Shown here: in pieces, positions 4,317-63,325 of the stretch
How the letters are laid out: every line of letters starts with the position of its first letter
Position numbering within the stretch: position 1 is the stretch's first letter
DNA from: a virus
Length of the DNA: 64,000 nucleotides
Virus record (IMG/VR): IMGVR_UViG_3300032220_001356
Coordinates: 26,726-90,725 of that record
Reading direction: 5' to 3' (one strand)
Program-made: the position numbers and the translations under genes
The notes under the pieces: model-generated
The model's input: only the letters and a program-made list of their open reading frames with translations
Databases searched by the model: none
Told to the model about the DNA's origin: nothing

Positions 4317-6280
4317 TGAAAAAGAAAATATTAGTAACAGGTCCAGCACTTACTGCCTCTGGATATGGCGAACAATCTAGATTTGCATTGAGAGCACTAC
4401 GTTCAAGAGAAGATTTATTCGATATTTATCTTGCTGCTACTCCTTGGGGACAATGTGGCTGGATTCATGAAGATAACGAAGAAAGAGCATGGTTAGATAG
4501 TTTAATTATTAAAAATGCTCAGTACAATCAAGCTTCTAATGGACAACCACAATATGATATGTCGTTGCAAATTTCAATTCCCAACGAATGGAAAAAGCTA
4601 GCACCAATTAATATTGGATATACAGCAGGTATTGAAACTAATAAGATTTCTCCTCATTGGATTCAACCATCCAATCAAATGGATAAAATTATTGTTGTAT
4701 CTAACTTTGCAAAGAAAGGATTTGAAAACGGAGTCTATACTGCCACAGATCAAAGAACAGGTCAACAAATCCAAAACTTTAGATGCAATGCACCAATAGA
4801 GGTAGTTAATTACCCTGTTCGTCGCTTTGAATCAAGTGAGTTAGAACTAAATCTAACAACAGATTTTAATTTCCTTGTCGTCGCTCAAGGAGGACCAAGA
4901 AAGAATCTAGCAAATACACTCAAATGGTTTGTGGAAGAATTTAAAAACGATGAAAACGTTGGTTTAATTTGCAAGACTCATACTGCTGGTTCTTCTCAAA
5001 TTGATCGAGAAATGACAACGAATGCAATCAAGAATATCCTTGCAGAGCACACAGATAAGAAATGCAAAGTATACGTCCTCCACGGCGATATGAGCGAAGC
5101 AGAAATGGCAGGGCTCTATACCCATCCAAAAGTAAAAGCGTTGCTCTCGTTGTCTCACGGAGAGGGTTTTGGGCTTCCAATATTTGAGGCAGCATACTAC
5201 GGACTTCCAGTTATCACGACTGAGTGGTCTGGTCCTATGGACTTTATGTATTGTCCAAATAAAGAAGGTAAAGTTAAACCACACTTTGCAAGAGTTGATT
5301 TTACGCTTGGACCAATCCAACAAGAAGCAGTTTGGCAAGGTGTATTAGAAAAAGATACAATGTGGGCTTTCCCAAATCATCTTTCTGCCAAAGAAGCAAT
5401 GAGAGAAGTTTATAAGAATCACGATAGATTCCGTGGTCAAGCAAAACGTCTTGCTGCTCATGTTGAAAAACAATTTTCAAATGACAAAATGAACGAATTA
5501 TTTGTTCAACAAGTATATGGTAAAAAAGTAGAAAAATTTGATATCAATAGTCTACCAAAAATTTCATTAATTTCTTCTGTTTATAATTCAGATGAATATA
5601 TCGAACAGTTTATGGAAGATATTACAAGACAATCAATCTTTAAAGATAAATGTGAGTGGATTATTATCAATGCAAATTCTCCCGGCAATGAAGAAGAAGT
5701 TATTATGCGTTATGTTAACAAATATCCAAACATAATATACAAGCGTCTTGATTCGGACCCCGGTATTTATGCTACTTGGAATATGGCAATTAAAATGTCT
5801 ACAGGAGAGTTTATAACAAACGCAAATACTGACGATAGAAAATCACCAAACTCTTTGCTAGAACATGCAAAAACGCTTTTCCTAAATAAAGAAATCGACT
5901 TGGCATATTCCGATAGTTATATCACTCACGAAGCCAACAAAAGATGGGAAGATATAGATAAAAATAACTGTCAACGCTATAACTTTGAACAATTTTCACC
6001 CAAAGCAATGTTGAGAGGAAATTTGCCACATAACAATCCAATGTGGAGAAGAAGTTTGCACGAAAAATTTGGTTTTTTCAATGAAAACTATCGTTCTGCA
6101 TCAGATTGGGAATTTTGGCTAACTTGTGCTGCTGGTGGCTCCAAATTTATAAAGTGTGATATTCCATTAGGTATTTATTACTTCAATCCAAAAGGAATTT
6201 CAACAAATTTTGAAAACTTTTCTTGGAAACAAAAAGAAGAAGAGGAAATTTATACAAAATTTAGTAAGTTGATTAAATAA
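4316..6280 (+). CDS. Two-domain glycosyltransferase: GT4 fused to GT2
   Basis: A 654-residue fusion of two glycosyltransferases. Residues 1-405 form a GT-B domain with EX7E (Glu283, Glu291) in HGEGFGLPIFEAA. From about residue 416 a GT-A domain of family GT2 begins (ISLISSVYNS), with acidic metal-binding residues Asp506-Asp507 in NANTDDRKS and the usual later W-R and DWEFWL segments. An upstream in-frame start at 4271 exists, but the ATG at 4316 has a good Shine-Dalgarno (GAAGGAAA) and overlaps the previous stop, so I chose it. Two linked enzymes probably add two successive sugars, like bifunctional polysaccharide synthases. Confidence 0.9.
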   Translation: MKKKILVTGPALTASGYGEQSRFALRALRSREDLFDIYLAATPWGQCGWIHEDNEERAWLDSLIIKNAQYNQASNGQPQYDMSLQISIPNEWKKLAPINIGYTAGIETNKISPHWIQPSNQMDKIIVVSNFAKKGFENGVYTATDQRTGQQIQNFRCNAPIEVVNYPVRRFESSELELNLTTDFNFLVVAQGGPRKNLANTLKWFVEEFKNDENVGLICKTHTAGSSQIDREMTTNAIKNILAEHTDKKCKVYVLHGDMSEAEMAGLYTHPKVKALLSLSHGEGFGLPIFEAAYYGLPVITTEWSGPMDFMYCPNKEGKVKPHFARVDFTLGPIQQEAVWQGVLEKDTMWAFPNHLSAKEAMREVYKNHDRFRGQAKRLAAHVEKQFSNDKMNELFVQQVYGKKVEKFDINSLPKISLISSVYNSDEYIEQFMEDITRQSIFKDKCEWIIINANSPGNEEEVIMRYVNKYPNIIYKRLDSDPGIYATWNMAIKMSTGEFITNANTDDRKSPNSLLEHAKTLFLNKEIDLAYSDSYITHEANKRWEDIDKNNCQRYNFEQFSPKAMLRGNLPHNNPMWRRSLHEKFGFFNENYRSASDWEFWLTCAAGGSKFIKCDIPLGIYYFNPKGISTNFENFSWKQKEEEEIYTKFSKLIK

Positions 6281-7128
6281 TGAAAGTTATTTCGTATTCT
6301 TTATTTGAACCAAAACAACTACCTTTACATAGAGAGTGGGACAAGTGGAAAACAGAAAATCAAAGATATTGGTTTAATATACCAACAGTTATTTTATTAA
6401 ATAAAATTATATATCCAGATTATGTTTCAAAATTTTATTTGTCTCCAAATGTTTTTGAAAATCCTTTAAGTGAAATTTTTAATATTTTTGAAGTTGAATA
6501 TGAAGTAATCCAAAGAGAGTACAATTTTACCGAACCTGCTATCTGGAGAATGATGCCTCTTTGGGAAAGAGGCGTTGAAATATTCCATTCTAGAGATATT
6601 GATTCGTTAACCTCAGAAAATGAATATAGATATATAAAATCATTTGAAAATTCTGAATGTTGCGTTGGTACAATAAGAAGTCACGAAAATCATTATAATT
6701 TACCTTGTCGTATGCTTGCTGGTCTTTCTAGTTTTAAGCCAAACAAAATTCCTTTTTCTATAAAAGGTATTAATTTTGATATGTATTATTCTATGAAAGA
6801 CAGCAATTATGGTTCCGACCAAAACTTGTTAATTAAAACATTTACGTTCAACGAGGAATTTACAAAATCTAATTTTTTAGATTGTAAAATAGATAGACAA
6901 TTTAATAAGCAAGATTTTAATTGCTTAGAGGCAAACTTAAACAGCATAGAAATTAATAAAAAAATTGATACTATTTTCAAAAAAATAAAACAAACTACCA
7001 ACACTACTTGGCTTGGAGAACCCTGCGATTCTAGAGGAGAATTGTTAAATTATTTGCTTAATGAAAGAAATGATATTAGATTAAAAATTGCAAATAATAA
7101 AAATTTGTCACTATTTTACAAGGTTTAA
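6280..7128 (+). CDS. Probable glycosyltransferase (GT-A-like, DxD), uncertain family
   Basis: A 282-residue protein between clear glycosyltransferases. Residues 90-115 read like a GT-A active site: a MMPLW segment, then SRDIDS with Asp106 and Asp108 as a DxD-type metal site, then an acidic NE pair. A histidine-containing stretch (SHENHY) and a glycine-serine loop follow. It lacks a signal peptide or membrane helix. Its ATG overlaps the preceding stop (TAATG) and the next gene starts 2 bases after its stop. I infer a glycosyltransferase role from the DxD region and context; the family is not recognised with certainty. The gene appears especially A/T-rich. Confidence 0.5.
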   Translation: MKVISYSLFEPKQLPLHREWDKWKTENQRYWFNIPTVILLNKIIYPDYVSKFYLSPNVFENPLSEIFNIFEVEYEVIQREYNFTEPAIWRMMPLWERGVEIFHSRDIDSLTSENEYRYIKSFENSECCVGTIRSHENHYNLPCRMLAGLSSFKPNKIPFSIKGINFDMYYSMKDSNYGSDQNLLIKTFTFNEEFTKSNFLDCKIDRQFNKQDFNCLEANLNSIEINKKIDTIFKKIKQTTNTTWLGEPCDSRGELLNYLLNERNDIRLKIANNKNLSLFYKV

Positions 7129-7130
7129 CA

Positions 7131-7916
7131 ATGAGAATTTTTGTCGGCAAACAAACACCAGAACACAAGAGAGACACATCCAGAGAATTAATGGATATCT
7201 GGAAAGAAATGGGATTGTGTGAAATTATCGAAGGTGAAGTCGAGGATTATTTTATTTGGGCCAATGAGCCAAATGGAACTTTACTATACGAATATGACCG
7301 ATGGGATGTATTTCCTTTATTGCCACCTATATGGAAAAAAGGTTTATTTGCAGGTATGCAACATCCAAATGGAATGCCTTGGATATATTGGGGAAGAAGA
7401 CCAAAAATGTTGCATTCTAAAATAGAAAGCGGTTTAAAGTCATACGACACCAGACAAATTGAATCCATTTTTCTTGGAAAAGTAGAAAACGGCATTCAAT
7501 TAAACAATAGAACCACCCATGATTGGTCTAAATCAATAGAATTGTTTAGTATGCCAATTAAGATGGGAGATAGTTTTAATTGGCCTTTTACACAAGAAGA
7601 ATATTTAAACAAAGTCGCTGACTCTAAGTTTGGTCTTTGTCTTGCTGGATATGGTCCAAAATGCAATAGAGAAATAGAGTATTTAGGTCTTGGTGTTGTT
7701 CCAATTATTACTGAAAATGTATGTGTAAAATACCACGACCCACTTATTGAAGGTATGCATTACTTCAAAGTTTCAAACTCAGACCAAATAGATAAAACAA
7801 TCAAAGAATGTTCGAAAGATAGATGGGAATATATGTCTTATAATTGTAAAAAATGGTACAATAAAAACTGTTCCCCTCTTGGGTCTTTTGAAACAACATA
7901 CAATATATTAAAATAA
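7131..7916 (+). CDS. Probable exostosin-like glycosyltransferase
   Basis: A 261-residue protein whose C-terminal half holds SKFGLCLAGYG (from residue 165), then NREIEYLGLGVVPII. This pattern, a small-residue strand followed by a helix with E and GxVPII, is the nucleotide-sugar binding region of exostosin-like (GT47-like) and other GT-B transferases. The N-terminal half is rich in tryptophan and aromatic residues (MPWIYWGRR). It is shorter than classical exostosins, so only the C-terminal Rossmann half is convincing. The start has AAGG 7-8 bases upstream. Substrate unknown; the cassette context supports a glycan role. Confidence 0.55.
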   Translation: MRIFVGKQTPEHKRDTSRELMDIWKEMGLCEIIEGEVEDYFIWANEPNGTLLYEYDRWDVFPLLPPIWKKGLFAGMQHPNGMPWIYWGRRPKMLHSKIESGLKSYDTRQIESIFLGKVENGIQLNNRTTHDWSKSIELFSMPIKMGDSFNWPFTQEEYLNKVADSKFGLCLAGYGPKCNREIEYLGLGVVPIITENVCVKYHDPLIEGMHYFKVSNSDQIDKTIKECSKDRWEYMSYNCKKWYNKNCSPLGSFETTYNILK

Positions 7917-8842
7917 TGAAAAATTTAAAAGTTAATTTTGTTGATTTTTGGGATAATTTTGATAAAGTTGATAACTATTTTTTTCATTTGTTATCAAACA
8001 ACTATAATGTAGAAATTTCCGAAAATCCAGATGTTTTGTTCTTTTCAGTCGATTATGCAAAAAGAAAAGAAAGAGACAAATATGTTAATCATAATTGTAA
8101 AAAAGTCTTTTTTACTGGAGAGAACATAAGACCCAACTTTTTTGTTCCCGGTTCTGTAGAATATCCCAGATATAGCATAGGTAAATGCGATTTTTCTTTT
8201 TCTTTTGATAATATGAATTTTTATAAAAACTATAGATTACCATTATGGATTTTGTACATAAATTGGTTTAATGTTCCGCACAACGATAACAGGGACCAAT
8301 CTTATTTAATACCATTAGATAATATATTAAATAAACAATTTTTTAATCCAAATAAGTTTTGTAATTTTGTTTTTTCTAATAATCAAGGTAAAAGATTAGA
8401 CATTCTTAATCATCTTAAAAAATACAAAAACATTGATTGTGCTGGAAGATTAGAAAATAATGTAAACTTTTCTATTCTTGGTAGAGGTGACCAAAAATAT
8501 AAAATTGATTTTATAAAAAACTATAAGTTTACAATTGCAGCAGAAAACTCTAAAACCGATGGTTACACAACTGAAAAAATAATTCATCCTTTATCGGTTG
8601 GTAGTATACCAATTTACTGGGGTTCATCAACAGTAAATAATGATTTTAATAAACAATGCTTTATTAACGTTGATAGTTTTTCAAACCTTGATGAATTGGT
8701 AGAGTATGTTATATATGTTGATAATTCAAAACAAGAATATGAAAAAATAATCAATGCTCCAATTTTTCCAAATAATAAAATACCAGAACAATTCATGCCC
8801 GATTCAATATTAAAATACTTTGAGGATTACATACTATGCTAA
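7916..8842 (+). CDS. GT10 alpha-1,3/1,4-fucosyltransferase-like enzyme
   Basis: A 308-residue protein of family GT10, which transfers L-fucose from GDP-fucose to a GlcNAc or Glc residue. Visible hallmarks are FFTGENIRPNF (N-terminal GT10 motif), YSIGKCDFSFSFD, the CNFVFSN segment, and the donor-binding block AAENSKTDGYTTEK, with the conserved YTTEK at residues 217-221 and then GSIPIYWGSS. The GDP-fucose makers Gmd and Fcl are encoded in the same cassette (16641-18538), so donor and transferase occur together. The length fits bacterial FucT cores without heptad-repeat tails. Starts in overlap with the preceding stop. Confidence 0.88.
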   Translation: MKNLKVNFVDFWDNFDKVDNYFFHLLSNNYNVEISENPDVLFFSVDYAKRKERDKYVNHNCKKVFFTGENIRPNFFVPGSVEYPRYSIGKCDFSFSFDNMNFYKNYRLPLWILYINWFNVPHNDNRDQSYLIPLDNILNKQFFNPNKFCNFVFSNNQGKRLDILNHLKKYKNIDCAGRLENNVNFSILGRGDQKYKIDFIKNYKFTIAAENSKTDGYTTEKIIHPLSVGSIPIYWGSSTVNNDFNKQCFINVDSFSNLDELVEYVIYVDNSKQEYEKIINAPIFPNNKIPEQFMPDSILKYFEDYILC

Positions 8843-9516
8843 ATGTAGAAAAAGTTTATATTGCTCATTACACAAAACTTATTGAAAGAAAACAAAGATT
8901 AGATGGTATCTTAAGAGAAAATGGAATAAAAGCAGAATATGTTTTTGATTTTGATAAAGACGTATTGACTGATGACATAATAAAAGAATATTATGTTTGT
9001 GATGAACAAAGTTATAATAATACTATTTCAAAAATTTATAAAAATGGCTCATTTAGAAAACTTAACTTGGCAGAAATTTCACTAACTATTAAGCATTGTT
9101 ATATAATGAAAAAAATAAGTAATGAATGTAAGGATTATGCTTTGGTCTTAGAAGATGATGTAGTTTTTGAAGATAGTTTTGTTGATAAATTCAACGATTA
9201 TCTTTCTAAAACTCCAAACGATTGGGATGTTATTTTTTTGGGCAATTGCTGTGGTCTAAGAATTCCAAAAGAACAGATTGTCGAAGGAAAAGTTGCTTAT
9301 GTAAAACAACATCCAGCGTCTAAATGTACTGACTCATTTTTAATTAAGAAGGAATTGGCAGAAAAGTTATCAAAAACAATGAAGCCATTTAATACTATTT
9401 GCGATTGGGAATATTCGTATCAATTTTATTTACACAACGCAAAAGTTTATTGGTGGGAGCCTACATTGGTTACACAAGGTTCTGAAAATGGTCTTTATAA
9501 ATCGGTATTGCGATGA
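8836..9516 (+). CDS. GT25-family glycosyltransferase
   Basis: A 226-residue member of family GT25, the lipooligosaccharide galactosyltransferase-like group. It opens with VYIAHYTKLIERKQRL, as in GT25 proteins, carries NLAEISLTIKHCYIM before the active site, and has the donor/metal site ALVLEDDVVFE with Glu106-Asp107-Asp108. The later DVIFLGNC and KCTDSFLIKKE segments also fit. GT25 enzymes usually add hexoses to outer-core sugars of LPS-like glycans. The ATG lies inside the end of the fucosyltransferase gene, with GAGG at about 11 bases upstream, and the stop overlaps the next start (ATGA). Confidence 0.88.
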   Translation: MLNVEKVYIAHYTKLIERKQRLDGILRENGIKAEYVFDFDKDVLTDDIIKEYYVCDEQSYNNTISKIYKNGSFRKLNLAEISLTIKHCYIMKKISNECKDYALVLEDDVVFEDSFVDKFNDYLSKTPNDWDVIFLGNCCGLRIPKEQIVEGKVAYVKQHPASKCTDSFLIKKELAEKLSKTMKPFNTICDWEYSYQFYLHNAKVYWWEPTLVTQGSENGLYKSVLR

Positions 9517-52730: not shown

Positions 52731-53264
52731 ATGAATAATACCCCAATGATTTTGGGACTTGATGTAAGTTCCTCGAAAATCGGCATTGCCGTTTTAGATT
52801 TAGACAAAAAAATAGTATCTACAGACTTGTTGAAGTTCAAGCCAGAAACTCCGCTTGAAGAAAGAGCAAAGCTGTTTGAGAACAAAATATCAAAATTAAA
52901 AAAGTTTTATCTTATAACTGATGTTTTTGTCGAAGAACCTTTTATTGCTTTTGGGGGTGGTAAAACAACTGCTCACACAATGGCAAAGCTTCAAAGATTT
53001 AATGGCATGTGCTGTTATTCAATTTATAGTGTTTTTGAATCGTTACCTGTTATGGTAAACGTGAGGACAGCAAGAAATAAACTTGGTATCAAAATTCCAA
53101 AAGGAACAAAACAAAATGATACTAAAAAATTCATTATTGAATACGTTGAAAGAAATCATACAGAATTTACTTACAACAAAACAGCCCAAGGTAATCCTGT
53201 GCCCGGTACGGACGACAAAGCAGACGCAATAGTAATTGCTTTGTATGGTTTACAAACTATTTAA
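52731..53264 (+). CDS. RuvC-like Holliday junction nuclease
   Basis: A 177-residue RNase H-fold nuclease of the RuvC type. The first strand ILGLDVSSSKIGIAVLD carries the catalytic Asp11; VFVEEPF offers Glu68 or Glu69; the C-terminal helix PGTDDKADAIVIALYG provides Asp161/Asp162 and Asp165. Length and motif order match RuvC-like resolvases found in many phages. It probably resolves branched DNA before packaging, the job done by an unrelated enzyme (gp49) in T4. No gp49-like gene is seen in this window. No clear Shine-Dalgarno; starts 5 bases after the structural block. Confidence 0.85.
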   Translation: MNNTPMILGLDVSSSKIGIAVLDLDKKIVSTDLLKFKPETPLEERAKLFENKISKLKKFYLITDVFVEEPFIAFGGGKTTAHTMAKLQRFNGMCCYSIYSVFESLPVMVNVRTARNKLGIKIPKGTKQNDTKKFIIEYVERNHTEFTYNKTAQGNPVPGTDDKADAIVIALYGLQTI

Positions 53265-53963: not shown

Positions 53964-54893
53964 ATGGCAACCAAAACCTCCCTTCTTGCATCTGCCCTTG
54001 GCGAATATCATAGGTCTGGTGAAGAAGTTTTATTCTCATGTCCCTTCTGCAAGCATCATAAGCGCAAGTTAAGTGTTAACCTGCGCTCAAATAATTATAA
54101 GTGCTGGGTTTGCGACGTTCGTGGAAAGAACGTCCGCAGACTTCTTAAAACAAGACTTTCATATTCCCAACTTTTAGATTGGGATAAACTCAATAATGTC
54201 GTTGACCTAACTCAATTAAATTCAGATTTATTTGATGTTCAACAACAGCGTATTAAAGAAATTATTGATTTACCAAATGAGTTTATATCTTTGGCTAACA
54301 AAAACTTACCAGTAACAACAAGATTTGCAACTAAGTATCTGCTTGATCGTGGTCTTACAAAGCAAGATATTATCATGTGGAAAATCGGTGTTTGTTTATC
54401 TGGCGAGTATGCTGGTCGTGTAGTTGTTCCATCTTTTGATGTTGATGGTAATTGCGATTATTTTGTAGCACGTTCTTATGGTCGTGAATTTCCAAAGTAT
54501 ATGAACCCTAACGTATCAAAAGATATTGTATTTAATGAGCTTTTTATTGATTGGAACAAAGATGTTGTACTTGTTGAGGGTGTTTTTGATGCTATGAAAG
54601 CAGAGAATTCTATTCCATTGCTTGGTTCTACTCTTAATGAAAAGACAACTTTGTTTAATAAAATTGTTCAGTATGATCCAACTATCTATATTGCTCTTGA
54701 TCCAGATGCAGAAGCAAAATCAAACGATATCATTAACAAATTAATCCATTACGATATTGAAATTTATAAAGTAGATATTTCTGGCTATGAAGACGTTGGA
54801 ACAATGACCAAACAACAATTTGTTCAACGAAAAGAAAAAGCAAGACTAATTACTGATAATTGGCTATTAGAAAATCAAATAATGGCAATTTAA
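53964..54893 (+). CDS. DNA primase, gp61/DnaG-like (zinc finger + TOPRIM)
   Basis: A 309-residue primase. A CHC2-like zinc finger opens the protein (Cys26, Cys29 in SCPFCK and Cys47, Cys50 in KCWVCD). The TOPRIM part shows VVLVEGVFDAM with Glu205 and IALDPDAEA with Asp246 and Asp248. It is somewhat shorter than T4 gp61 (342 residues). It makes RNA primers for lagging-strand synthesis together with a replicative helicase, which is not in this window. A promoter-like pair of hexamers lies directly upstream. Confidence 0.92.
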   Translation: MATKTSLLASALGEYHRSGEEVLFSCPFCKHHKRKLSVNLRSNNYKCWVCDVRGKNVRRLLKTRLSYSQLLDWDKLNNVVDLTQLNSDLFDVQQQRIKEIIDLPNEFISLANKNLPVTTRFATKYLLDRGLTKQDIIMWKIGVCLSGEYAGRVVVPSFDVDGNCDYFVARSYGREFPKYMNPNVSKDIVFNELFIDWNKDVVLVEGVFDAMKAENSIPLLGSTLNEKTTLFNKIVQYDPTIYIALDPDAEAKSNDIINKLIHYDIEIYKVDISGYEDVGTMTKQQFVQRKEKARLITDNWLLENQIMAI

Positions 54894-55181: not shown

Positions 55182-58100
55182 ATGAAGATTGTTCATGTAA
55201 GCGATATTCACGTTAAAAATTTCAAGTTTCACAAACAATACAACGAAATTTTTGCAGACTTATATGAAAAAGTAAGAGATATCAAGCCAGATATTATTAT
55301 CAATACTGGAGATACTGCTCATACCAAACTTGACCTATCTCCTGCTTATTTTGAGATGACAGCCAAGTTGTTTGAGAACTTGGCGTCTATTGCTCCTTTG
55401 CATGTAATTCTTGGTAATCATGACCTTAATCTATCTAACAAAGATAGACAAGATGCCGTTACACCAATTGTCGAAGCATTAAAGAATCCTAATATTATCC
55501 TTCACAAATATTCAAAGAAGTTTAATATTGGAGATTTTAATTTTCATGTTCTCTCAATTGTGGATGAAGAAAATTGGGACTTGAACGTTGATGAATCCAA
55601 AGTAAATATTGCTTTGTTTCATGGTTCTGTTGAGGGTTCTCAAACAGATATGAATTTCACCATGACTCATGGTGATATTGGATTTGATGTTCTTGAAAAG
55701 TTTGATTATGCTTTGCTTGGAGATATCCACAAAACAAATCAATCCCTTGACTTTGCAGGACGTTGCCGTTATCCCGGCTCCCTTATTCAACAAAACCACG
55801 GAGAAACCAACGATAAAGGTTTCTTAGTTTGGAATATTGAAAGCAAAGAAAACTTCTTTGTTGAGCATGTACAACTTAATAACCCATATCCATTTTGTAC
55901 TATTGAACTTACAGAAGATGGAAAAATTCCATCCAACGTTCATGTTCCACAAAATGCAAGACTTCGTTTGCTTTCCAGAACAAACCTGCCAGCAGAGTTA
56001 ATGAAGAAAGCATCTGATGTTGCAAAGGAAAAGTTTAAGCCAGAATCTATTTCATTCCTTGCAAAAAATGCTAATAAGTCAGAAACTATTATGAACGGGA
56101 AGGTTATTGCAAGAGAAGACTTGCGTAATCCAAAGGTTCAAGAGAGACTTATTTCAGACTATCTTGCGGACTATAAAGTTCCAGAAGAAGTGTTGAAGCA
56201 AGTATATGAAATTAACTCACGCTATAACTCTCAGATTCAAGCAACAGAAGAAGTTTGTCGTAATGTTAATTGGAAATTAAAGCATGTTGAGTGGGACAAC
56301 CTTTTTAATTATGGCGAAGGTAACTCTATTGATTTCTCCAAACTAAATGGAGTTGTAGGTATCTTTGGCAAGAATTATAGCGGTAAGTCTAGCATTATTG
56401 ACTCTATCCTTTATTCAATCTTCAATACCACTTCTAAGAACGAACGTAAGACAACAAACGTAATTAACCAAACCAAGTCTTTTGGCAAGGGTAAAGCAGT
56501 TATTGAAATTGATGATTTTGATTATTACATTGACAGAAAGGCAGAAAAATATACCAAAAAACTAAAAGGTGAAGTTTCCGAAGAAGCAAAAACTGAACTT
56601 ACTCTAAATTGTTTTGATGCTCACTCTGGTCAATGGGAGCAAATGAATCAACTTACCAGAACAGACACAGACAAATATATTCGTAAAATGTTCGGTACTA
56701 TTGACGACTTTATGCTTACATCTTTTTCTTCACAACTTGATTCCATGACTTTTATTCGTGAGGGTTCTACAAGAAGAAAGGAAATTCTTGCTCGCTTTTT
56801 GGATTTGGATATCTTTGATGCTAAATTTAAAATGGCAAAAGAAGAATCTTCAAATCTTAAAGGACTCTTGAAAAAGTTGGAAGGCAAAGAGTTTGATTCC
56901 GATATTGTCAAGAGTGAAACTCTTCTTGACCAACTTAACCAAACTATCAACGACAATGCTATTTTAATTAATGAAGTAAAGTCAAAACAAGCAGATATCC
57001 AAGCAACTATTCAAGATTTGAATAACCAAATCAGCGAGTGTGGTGTTGAATCTATCGATATCGATATTGTACTGAAGCAAAAGAATAAACTTGTACAACA
57101 ACTTGATACTATCAGCACAACACTATCTGATAAGAACAAGGAACTTGAAGAAGCACAAGTATTGTTTAAGAAAATCAATGATTTCGTTGATGGGTTTGAT
57201 ATTAAACAATTAAAAGAACAAAAGGACTTTATTTCTAAGAAGCAACAAGAACTTAAAGACTTGCACGTTGAACTTTCTTCCAGCAATAAAAATATTGATA
57301 GACTAAAAGAAAAAGTAAAGTTACTTCAAGAAGTTCCTTGTGGAACACAATTTGTATATTGTAAGTTTATTAAAGATGCGTACAATGCAAAAATGTCTAT
57401 TCCATTGCACGAAGATTCACTAGAAAACGATAAGTTACAATACGATAAACTTGCAAAGGAAGTATCTGAATTTGATATTACACAAGTAAATAATCAAATT
57501 TCCAAATATGACCAAATCCTTGTCAAGAAGAACGAAACCGAAAAGAAAGTTTTAAAACTTGAAGTTGAAATTAATAAACTTGAAAATGACGCAAAAGCAG
57601 TTGAAAACAATATTGTAGAAATTGAAAAGCAAATTGAAACTTACAAAAAGAACAATGAACTTTTTGAAAAACTTGATTCACTTAATCAACAACTTGTTGA
57701 AGCAAAAAGTGAAGCAAGCAAAGTAAATAAACAATTCGCAAAATTGGATGAAGAACTTATTGATACCTATATTAAAGTAGGTTCAACCAAGAACAAGATT
57801 GAGACTCTAAAAAATGAAAAAACAGAACTGGACAACCTCAGAAATGAGTTTGCTGCTTATGATTACTATATGCGCTGTATGCATCCTAACGGAATCTCTT
57901 ATGAGATTATCAAAAAGAAACTTCCAGTTATCAATGCAGAAATTGCAAAAGTTCTTTCAAACATTGTAGAGTTTGAAGTATTTTTTGAAGACGACGGAAC
58001 AAAACTAAATGTATTTATCAAACACCCCAAATATGATGCTAGACCTATTGAAATGGGTTCTGGTGCAGAAAAAACAATTGCTGCAATGGCTATTCGTTTG

Positions 58101-58328
58101 GCTTTACTTGAAGTCTCCAATCTTCCTAAGTGCGACACATTATTCTTGGATGAACCTGCTACTGCTTTGGATGACGAACATTTAAATAATTTTTCTAAAA
58201 TTCTTGATACTTTTAAAATGTTTTATAATAGAATAATTCTTATAACCCACATTGATTCGCTTAAAGATTATTGTGACCAAATTATTACTATTGAAAAAAT
58301 AAATGGATATGCCAAGGTAAATATATAA
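55182..58328 (+). CDS. Fused Mre11-Rad50 recombination nuclease (gp47-gp46 / SbcD-SbcC)
   Basis: A 1,048-residue protein joining two proteins that are separate in T4. Residues 1-340 form the Mre11/gp47 phosphoesterase with Asp8, His10, Asp44, Asn79 and His80 (HVSDIH, NTGDTAH, LGNHD) and later LLGDIH. From about 370 the Rad50/gp46 ATPase begins, with Walker A GKNYSGKSS at 396-404, long coiled coil, a hook-like VPCGTQFVYCKF with Cys720 and Cys727, and Walker B FLDEPATALDDE (Asp990, Glu991). The signature motif GSGAEKT also appears. It would process DNA ends for recombination-driven replication and degrade host DNA. AGAGG supports the start. Confidence 0.93.
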   Translation: MKIVHVSDIHVKNFKFHKQYNEIFADLYEKVRDIKPDIIINTGDTAHTKLDLSPAYFEMTAKLFENLASIAPLHVILGNHDLNLSNKDRQDAVTPIVEALKNPNIILHKYSKKFNIGDFNFHVLSIVDEENWDLNVDESKVNIALFHGSVEGSQTDMNFTMTHGDIGFDVLEKFDYALLGDIHKTNQSLDFAGRCRYPGSLIQQNHGETNDKGFLVWNIESKENFFVEHVQLNNPYPFCTIELTEDGKIPSNVHVPQNARLRLLSRTNLPAELMKKASDVAKEKFKPESISFLAKNANKSETIMNGKVIAREDLRNPKVQERLISDYLADYKVPEEVLKQVYEINSRYNSQIQATEEVCRNVNWKLKHVEWDNLFNYGEGNSIDFSKLNGVVGIFGKNYSGKSSIIDSILYSIFNTTSKNERKTTNVINQTKSFGKGKAVIEIDDFDYYIDRKAEKYTKKLKGEVSEEAKTELTLNCFDAHSGQWEQMNQLTRTDTDKYIRKMFGTIDDFMLTSFSSQLDSMTFIREGSTRRKEILARFLDLDIFDAKFKMAKEESSNLKGLLKKLEGKEFDSDIVKSETLLDQLNQTINDNAILINEVKSKQADIQATIQDLNNQISECGVESIDIDIVLKQKNKLVQQLDTISTTLSDKNKELEEAQVLFKKINDFVDGFDIKQLKEQKDFISKKQQELKDLHVELSSSNKNIDRLKEKVKLLQEVPCGTQFVYCKFIKDAYNAKMSIPLHEDSLENDKLQYDKLAKEVSEFDITQVNNQISKYDQILVKKNETEKKVLKLEVEINKLENDAKAVENNIVEIEKQIETYKKNNELFEKLDSLNQQLVEAKSEASKVNKQFAKLDEELIDTYIKVGSTKNKIETLKNEKTELDNLRNEFAAYDYYMRCMHPNGISYEIIKKKLPVINAEIAKVLSNIVEFEVFFEDDGTKLNVFIKHPKYDARPIEMGSGAEKTIAAMAIRLALLEVSNLPKCDTLFLDEPATALDDEHLNNFSKILDTFKMFYNRIILITHIDSLKDYCDQIITIEKINGYAKVNI

Positions 58329-58381: not shown

Positions 58382-59110
58382 ATGAAGTGCGGGGTTTATA
58401 AAATAATAAATAAAATTGATAATAAATTTTATATTGGAAGTAGTATCGATATTGAACAACGATGGTATAAACATAAAAGTTTATTACGCAACAACAAACA
58501 TCCAAACAAACATCTACAAAACGCTTGGAATAAATATGGTGAAATTTGTTTTGAATTTCAAATTATTTGCTTAACAGAAAAAGAAAAACTTTTATTAATC
58601 GAACAAAAATTTATTATACAAACAAATTGTTGTAATAATAAAATAGGATATAATATTTCATATAATACGATTAGTCCAAACCTTGGTAAAAAACTATCTT
58701 TACAAGAAAAGCAAAAAATTAGCGATTCTATGAAAGGCAAAAAACACTCACAAGAAACAAAGGATAAAATTGGTCGTGCTAATAAAAATAAGAAAAGAAC
58801 ACAAGAACAAAAAGATTGTTTGAGCAAAATTAAAAAGCACAATCCTAGCGGTGCAGCAGTTAAAGGTCATAAAAAAACAGAAGAGCACAAAAACAAAATA
58901 AAGAATTTTGCTAAAACTAGAATTGGTACAAAAAATGCAAATTCTAAACTTACTTCTGAGCAAATCCAACAAATTCTTACAGACTTTAATGATAAAGAAA
59001 TTAGTTTAACACAAATAGCAAAAAAATATAATGTTTCTCTTTCTACTATTAAAAGAATAAAATATAATATTAGTGGATATACAAAGGAAAATATTAATGA
59101 ACCAGTTTAA
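58382..59110 (+). CDS. GIY-YIG homing endonuclease
   Basis: A 242-residue endonuclease. The GIY-YIG domain is residues 1-95: GVY at 4-6, YIG at 17-19, Arg27 and a later glutamate in LLLIEQKF. Residues 105-180 hold NUMOD3-type DNA-binding repeats (KQKISDSMKGKKHS, KDKIGRANKNKK). The C-terminal 55 residues form a helix-turn-helix (LTQIAKKYNVSLSTIKRI). This layout is that of phage homing enzymes such as the Seg family and I-TevI relatives. It sits right behind the Mre11-Rad50 gene and overlaps the next gene by 14 bases. GAGG precedes the ATG. Very A/T-rich, suggesting acquisition. Confidence 0.92.
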   Translation: MKCGVYKIINKIDNKFYIGSSIDIEQRWYKHKSLLRNNKHPNKHLQNAWNKYGEICFEFQIICLTEKEKLLLIEQKFIIQTNCCNNKIGYNISYNTISPNLGKKLSLQEKQKISDSMKGKKHSQETKDKIGRANKNKKRTQEQKDCLSKIKKHNPSGAAVKGHKKTEEHKNKIKNFAKTRIGTKNANSKLTSEQIQQILTDFNDKEISLTQIAKKYNVSLSTIKRIKYNISGYTKENINEPV

Positions 59111-61738: not shown

Positions 61739-63325
61739 ATGTATAAACTTACCAAACAACAAGTTCAAGACGAAATATTAAAGTGTGGTAAGAATCCAGT
61801 ATATTTCATAAACACATATTGTAAGATTTCTCACCCCCAACGTGGTCCTATTCCTTTTAGGATGTATCCGTTTCAAGAGGAGGTCGTAAAAGACTTTCAA
61901 GACCACAGATTTAGTGTTATTCTGAAAGCCCGACAACTTGGTTTATCTACCGTAGTTGCGGGCTATATTGCTTGGTTGATGTTGTTTCATCGTGACAAGA
62001 ACGTTTTGGTATTAGCAACCAAACTTTTGTCAGCATCAAACTTAGTTAAGAAAGTTAAATATATTATCAAATCTGTCCCATCGTGGCTTATGATTGCTAC
62101 GGTAACAATTGACAACAGAAATTCATTTGAACTTTCAAATGGTTCCCAAATCAAGTCTTCTGCTACTTCTGGCGATGCTGGTCGTTCCGAAGCCTTGTCC
62201 TTGCTTGTACTGGACGAAGCAGCATTTATTGAAGGTATGCAAGAGCTTTGGACAGGTCTTTATCCTACAATGGCTACTGGTGGTCGTTGTATTGCTATTT
62301 CAACTCCAAATGGTGTAGGTAATTGGTTCCATCAAACTTATATCGATGCTGAATCTTCCGCAAATGAATTTCATCCTATCCGACTACATTGGTCAGTCCA
62401 TCCAGACCGCGACCAAAATTGGTTTGAAAAAGAAACCAAAAACATGGGTAAAAGAGAAATTGCACAAGAATATGAGTGTTCGTTCAATGCGTCTGGTGAA
62501 ACCGTATTAGCAGCAGAAGATTTAGAATATTTATCAACGGCATATGAGGAACCAAAATTAAGAATTGGTTTAGATAGAAACTTGTGGATTTGGAAAGCTC
62601 ATTATGAAAAATGCAAGTATCTTCTAGTTGCAGACGTTGCGAGAGGAGATGGTAAGGACTTTTCAGTATTCCACGTATTAAATCTCGATACAATGGAACA
62701 AGTCGCTGAATATCAAGGTAAGTTGAATATTGACGATTTTGCAATTCTTTTGACCAACACAGGCAGACAATATGGTAACGCTATGATTGTTGTTGAAAAT
62801 AACAATCTTGGATATGCAGTATTGGAAAAGATAATTTCAATTGGATATACGAACATATATTATTCTACCAAAGGATCAACAGAGTTTGTTGAGCAATACG
62901 TAGCACAAGGTATGTCGAATTCAGTTCCCGGTTTTACTACCTCGCACAAATCAAGACCACTAATTATCGCAAAGATGGAAGAATTTATTAGATCCAAAGC
63001 AATAAAAATAAATTCTATTCGTTCGTATAACGAATTGTCAACCTTTATTTGGCATCATGGTAGACCACAAGCAATGGTTGGTTACAATGACGATTTAGTT
63101 TTATCGTTGTCAATTGCTTGTTGGGTTAAAGATACGGTATTCCAAAATGCCACAAAAGATGTTGAATATCAAAAAGCGTTATTGACAGGCATAACAAAAT
63201 CGAATAAGATACTAGATACTAGTATATCTGGTATGATAAGTTACAATCAAAACAACAAATTAGCAGATAAAGTCACGCAACAAAGACAACTACAAAAAGA
63301 CTTTATTTGGATATTTAAAGGATAG
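61739..63325 (+). CDS. Large terminase subunit, gp17-like
   Basis: A 528-residue packaging ATPase-nuclease. The ATPase has a gp17-type Walker A variant KARQLGLST (residues 63-71) and Walker B LLVLDEAAF with Asp159 and Glu160; the coupling motif ISTPNG follows. The nuclease domain has VADVARGDGKDFSVF, VVENNNLG and a C-terminal GYNDDLVLSL, providing the acidic metal residues. It is shorter than T4 gp17 (610), mainly at the N-terminus. It cuts and pumps concatemeric DNA into the prohead through the portal encoded next. Confidence 0.96.
   Translation: MYKLTKQQVQDEILKCGKNPVYFINTYCKISHPQRGPIPFRMYPFQEEVVKDFQDHRFSVILKARQLGLSTVVAGYIAWLMLFHRDKNVLVLATKLLSASNLVKKVKYIIKSVPSWLMIATVTIDNRNSFELSNGSQIKSSATSGDAGRSEALSLLVLDEAAFIEGMQELWTGLYPTMATGGRCIAISTPNGVGNWFHQTYIDAESSANEFHPIRLHWSVHPDRDQNWFEKETKNMGKREIAQEYECSFNASGETVLAAEDLEYLSTAYEEPKLRIGLDRNLWIWKAHYEKCKYLLVADVARGDGKDFSVFHVLNLDTMEQVAEYQGKLNIDDFAILLTNTGRQYGNAMIVVENNNLGYAVLEKIISIGYTNIYYSTKGSTEFVEQYVAQGMSNSVPGFTTSHKSRPLIIAKMEEFIRSKAIKINSIRSYNELSTFIWHHGRPQAMVGYNDDLVLSLSIACWVKDTVFQNATKDVEYQKALLTGITKSNKILDTSISGMISYNQNNKLADKVTQQRQLQKDFIWIFKG

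Follow-up and report, generated by a model that had tools for sequence, protein, structure and literature searches.

In E. coli SbcCD and in archaeal Mre11-Rad50, nuclease and ATPase are separate subunits, with a GHxH motif in the nuclease and a CxxC zinc hook. SbcC and SbcD are also handled as two partner proteins in a review of jumbo phages. One-chain versions were described in 2011 by Yoshida, Claverie and Ogata, who reported Mre11/Rad50 fusions in Mimivirus (R555), in Bacillus phage 0305phi8-36, in plasmids, in bacteria and in eukaryotes, argued that the order of the fusion and its linker of 9-12 residues fit the geometry of the ordinary complex, and noted that in the R555 nuclease the third Asp of GDxxD is replaced by His, and His206 by Asp (PMC3175470). 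R555 homologs were abundant in aquatic viral metagenomes, phage primases were present on the marine scaffolds bearing them, and aquatic phages were inferred to carry such fusions in abundance (PMC3175470). In the literature on phage fusions after 2011, we found nothing more direct than this paper.

The window analyzed here is a stretch of 64,000 nucleotides from a viral record of IMG/VR (IMGVR_UViG_3300032220_001356; 90.7 kb, possibly a fragment). Its plus strand contains, at 55182-58328, one ORF that starts with ATG and runs for 1,048 codons without an internal stop, and in which a Mre11-like nuclease is N-terminal and a Rad50-like ATPase C-terminal. The gene and its parts are as follows.

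55182-58328, plus strand: Mre11-Rad50 (SbcD-SbcC) fusion gene, 1,048 aa (ORF, PHROGs, family alignment)
55182-56066, plus strand: Mre11/SbcD nuclease and capping region, residues 1-295, with DIH 8-10, GDTAH 43-47, GNHD 78-81, H147 and GDIH 180-183 (Pfam, PHROGs, motifs, model)
56130-56246, plus strand: helix-loop-helix at the position where Mre11 has its Rad50-binding domain, residues 317-355 (model; position as in the fusions of PMC3175470)
56247-56267, plus strand: linker, residues 356-362, of constant length in the family and differing only synonymously in two near relatives (spacing and codon comparison)
56268-56807, plus strand: Rad50 N-lobe, residues 363-542, with Walker A GIFGKNYSGKSS at 393-404 and Q-loop Q518 (Pfam, motifs, model)
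56808-57332, plus strand: ascending coiled-coil arm, residues 543-717 (model)
57333-57362, plus strand: coil apex, residues 718-727, with C720 and C727 forming CX6C where a CxxC zinc hook is expected (alignment, model)
57363-57881, plus strand: descending coiled-coil arm, residues 728-900 (model)
57882-58325, plus strand: Rad50 C-lobe, residues 901-1048, with signature GSGAEK 959-964, Walker B D990 and E991, D-loop D997 and H1023 (Pfam, profile matches, motifs)

Both halves were recognized by two family collections. Pfam placed Metallophos (calcineurin-like phosphoesterase) at residues 1-183 (2e-12) and the Rad50-type AAA_23 at residues 373-597 (5.6e-10), with a weak match of SbcC_Walker_B, below the cut-off, at residues 955-1008. 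In PHROGs, the SbcD family phrog_100 matched residues 1-263 (1.3e-30) and the SbcC family phrog_77 residues 208-1047 (1.3e-57). When a profile of the fusion family was compared with solved chains, its first part matched Mre11/SbcD and its second part Rad50/SbcC. The open ORF and the two domain families confirm that Mre11-like and Rad50-like proteins are truly fused in the window gene, as a sequence-only reading of this DNA had proposed, and no argument against it was found in the data gathered. We consider it very likely (probability about 0.9) that the gene encodes the phage Mre11-Rad50 (SbcD-SbcC, T4 gp47-gp46) machine for DNA-end processing as one chain, in the manner of R555.

The novelty that the sequence-only reading implied was not supported. 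Since one-chain Mre11/Rad50 proteins were described in 2011 (PMC3175470), the window fusion is not new in kind and is a further example of the R555-like fusions. It shares with them the one-ORF order of N-terminal Mre11 and C-terminal Rad50, the capping and helix-loop-helix regions followed by a short linker (as judged from the model for the window protein), aquatic viral occurrence and nearby phage primases. The changes from GDxxD to GDxxH and from His206 to Asp are also those of R555. The window protein differs from R555 in its length (1,048 aa against 1,351 aa) and in being carried by a tailed phage; the CX6C apex is a feature of the window protein, the hook having been read on its side of this comparison only.

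Among phages, the fusion of Microcystis phage Mel-JY01 (WWT39521.1 in PP395634), annotated merely as 'AAA domain containing protein', is also encoded by one ORF, is 30% identical to the window protein over the full length and is closely preceded by a primase and one small gene; its own hook, in contrast, is CX2C. More distant fusions were found in Thermus phage phiLo and in a 735-kb uncultured phage. In a small tree bearing on whether the fused phage proteins had a single origin, the distant branches were long and in places unsupported. With E. coli SbcCD and archaeal Mre11-Rad50, the window protein shares the domain folds. T4 gp46 (Rad50) and gp47 (Mre11) belong to the same two enzyme families and probably have the same role, but T4 keeps them separate, as had been stated for this comparison beforehand, with the two small genes 46.1 and 46.2 between them, and its gp46 is a protein of 560 aa with a CPTC hook.

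The structure was predicted with AlphaFold2 from a 78-sequence alignment (mean pLDDT 84.5, pTM 0.50); this model replaced a first, poor one made from 19 sequences (pLDDT 71.5). In the model, the nuclease and capping region is followed by a stretch of low confidence, residues 295-309, which is the least confident part, and then by two helices (317-331 and 335-355) at the place where Mre11 carries its Rad50-binding helix-loop-helix. A short linker leads to the first Rad50 strand, which begins at residue 363; the coil arms span about 543-717 and 728-900, on either side of the apex, and the C-lobe comes last. Because pTM is only 0.50, the relative placement of the two halves is uncertain. The best fold matches in the PDB were Mre11-Rad50 complexes and SMC heads. 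Among viral models, giant-virus homologs came first (Tupanvirus, Harvfovirus, Yasminevirus, Terrestrivirus and Catovirus), whose layout the window protein shares, and proteins of the Tenacibaculum phages pT24 and PTm1 were among the top 13 viral matches. According to the sequence-only reading, the covalent link would change how the complex assembles and is controlled; the predicted retention of the helix-loop-helix and the short linker of fixed length suggest that the tether would keep the normal Mre11-Rad50 geometry rather than alter it.

IMG/VR was scanned in two ways. With the single sequence, 24 loci were found, 21 of them matching over essentially the full length; with the family alignment, at least 600 stretches were matched, at least 591 of them relatives, of which 80 were kept. 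In 107 of 117 loci, parts of all three regions (nuclease, Rad50 N-lobe and Rad50 C-lobe) lay in one ORF, a count that takes in the window's own record (L025), an interrupted gene (L027) and at least one apparent duplicate (L049 and L109, whose contigs are equally long); the remaining loci ran into contig ends or were too divergent for the one-ORF test. Roughly 105 other loci thus carry an intact fusion, and the recurrence in phage genomes that had been proposed as a check was indeed found. The long contigs confirm what short metagenomic scaffolds had allowed the 2011 paper to show only partially (PMC3175470): a large group of aquatic tailed phages carries Mre11-Rad50 in single-chain form, and the junction is of constant length.

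We considered the possibility that two ordinary genes had been merged by an assembly or sequencing error deleting a stop and a start. A case of this kind may be the apparent fusion of Listeria phage LMTA-57, which stands apart from its close relatives, all of the two-gene type. An overlooked stop and start between 56100 and 56290 had been named as what would reveal two genes in the window; yet frame 0 is open over this interval, stops are present in both other frames, and a scan of Met starts showed that near the junction only residue 304, which precedes the helix-loop-helix, is an in-frame Met. The spacing of residues across the junction was compared in the window protein (P0001) and 77 relatives sharing 29-74% identity. 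N345 and W364 were 19 residues apart in 75 of the 78 sequences, and R315 and W364 were 49 residues apart in 76 of them. In the nine codons 357-365, two relatives (L001 and L003) each showed three synonymous differences and no nonsynonymous one. This constant spacing and the purely synonymous differences in the linker indicate that the junction is coding and conserved. Because the same open ORF recurs in about 105 independent contigs, the fusion is not an assembly artefact, and we dropped this explanation as having a negligible probability. A second possibility was that the single chain is a precursor, cut near residues 295-309 or in the linker to yield ordinary separate subunits. In its favor, residues 295-309 combine the lowest confidence of the model with the highest variation at the codon level. 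However, a cut there would leave the helix-loop-helix with the Rad50 part, the linker (357-365) is conserved in both sequence and length, and no protease was identified, so that cleavage appears highly improbable as well.

The catalytic motifs raise a third possibility, namely that the chain is mainly an ATP-driven tether or scaffold for DNA ends, with a nuclease half that is weak or inactive. The sequence-only reading had credited both halves with all key motifs. In nearly all of 108 sequences, D8, H10, D44, N79, H80, H147, D181 and H183 were conserved in the nuclease, and K402, Q518, S960, G961, E963, D990, E991, D997 and H1023 in the ATPase. To speak of all key motifs was too generous, since the nuclease has GDTAH (43-47) for GDxxD and GDIH (180-183) for GHxH, with D181 occupying the position of Pyrococcus His206, the ATPase has GSGAEK for the LSGGE-like signature, and the apex is CX6C. 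In view of the two nuclease substitutions, at His206 and at the last Asp of GDxxD, the nuclease chemistry is not to be assumed. Both substitutions are nearly invariant among the 108 sequences and affect positions near the metal site that were named in PMC3175470, which speaks for a tether. Asp is nevertheless able to bind metal, all the other metal-ligand positions are conserved in nearly all of the 108 sequences, and a nuclease site no longer in use should decay. We therefore regard a mainly tethering function as unlikely, though less so than the two preceding explanations, and favor a one-chain machine that processes DNA ends.

For this machine we infer nuclease and ATPase activity, dimerization and a role in replication, its probable function being the resection of DNA ends for recombination-dependent replication and repair. 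Two chains would dimerize through their nuclease domains and, when ATP is bound, through their Rad50 heads, and each helix-loop-helix would bind a Rad50 coil at its root, in its own chain or in the partner. ATP hydrolysis would gate the access of DNA ends to the nuclease, and the phage RecA/UvsX would use the trimmed ends to invade strands during recombination-dependent replication and repair. The fusion probably fixes a 1:1 stoichiometry and eases co-expression and co-transfer, leaving the basic mechanism unchanged. Structural and mechanistic studies of Mre11-Rad50 might also find a handy construct in a single-chain enzyme of known stoichiometry.

The apex of the coil (57333-57362) contains C720-X6-C727 in the window protein, not the canonical CxxC. 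Among 108 sequences, CX6C was found in 77 in its plain form and in a few more with extra cysteines, CX7C in 11, CX2C in 11 and CX3C in 2, while one sequence had no pair; C727 was present in all 108. The hook class changed at least seven times on one tree, built without the hook region, and short and long hook loops alternated among near relatives (L013 and L017 versus L018). The gp46 hooks of S-CRM01 and Cr30 are CYTC and CPTC, respectively. A thin check of the literature on the Rad50 hook, which is weak evidence, yielded nothing on longer cysteine spacings. The variable spacing within the fused family may be the one mildly new point of this work, and it is conceivable, if rather doubtful, that this phage group has remodelled the Rad50 hook. 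Should the longer loops prove to bind metal or to be closed by a disulfide, the evolution of the hook would be more flexible than the CxxC rule implies, and the variants would provide a natural series for testing what the hook requires.

The window's own record gave a single match to the window protein. When 12 related records of 119-204 kb were compared with the SbcC and SbcD families, there was one main match per family, both inside the same fused ORF; Mel-JY01 showed two further marginal SbcC matches beside its main one. A RecA-family gene was present in all seven large relatives tested; the window's record, possibly a fragment, gave none. The genes around the fusion are as follows.

52731-53264, plus strand: RuvC-like Holliday junction resolvase (phrog_159), conserved upstream neighbor (PHROGs)
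53964-54893, plus strand: DNA primase (phrog_47), conserved upstream neighbor (PHROGs)
58382-59110, plus strand: GIY-YIG homing endonuclease gene (phrog_314), just past the downstream end of the fusion (PHROGs)
61739-63325, plus strand: terminase large subunit, downstream, showing that the phage is tailed (PHROGs)

Among the 115 loci with a match, primase was found in 94, terminase in 82 and RuvC in 78, and in 81 the primase was a same-strand gene no more than 1.5 kb upstream. Megablast of the window neighborhood against phages gave no match, and plasmids gave only weak matches to the nuclease domain and no fusion. Genes resembling the GIY-YIG endonuclease also follow the fusion in three other loci (L089, L102 and L103).

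Three cases deserve separate mention. In a 484-kb uncultured phage (LR756508.1, positions 4943-9166; L027), the fused gene is interrupted in its nuclease half, after GDIH and before GSLIQQ, by an ORF of 305 codons that resembles a homing endonuclease gene and contains zinc-finger-like CxxC repeats. No Rfam match to a group I intron was found in this interrupted locus or in the window, and the interruption may therefore represent a split gene, not an intron. In Listeria phage LMTA-57 (L028), the gene annotated as a fused 'recombination exonuclease' seems to have arisen by a one-base frameshift from the two-gene layout of its relatives, through a sequencing error or a recent mutation; since close relatives have two genes and a stretch one base longer, this phage was dropped as independent support. 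Lastly, the supposedly bacterial chromosome of a candidate division WOR-3 MAG (CP070664.1) contains, at two distant places (L111 and L114), the two ends of a phage fusion gene, covering residues 2-630 and 543-1048, which suggests that phage contigs were joined into the MAG.
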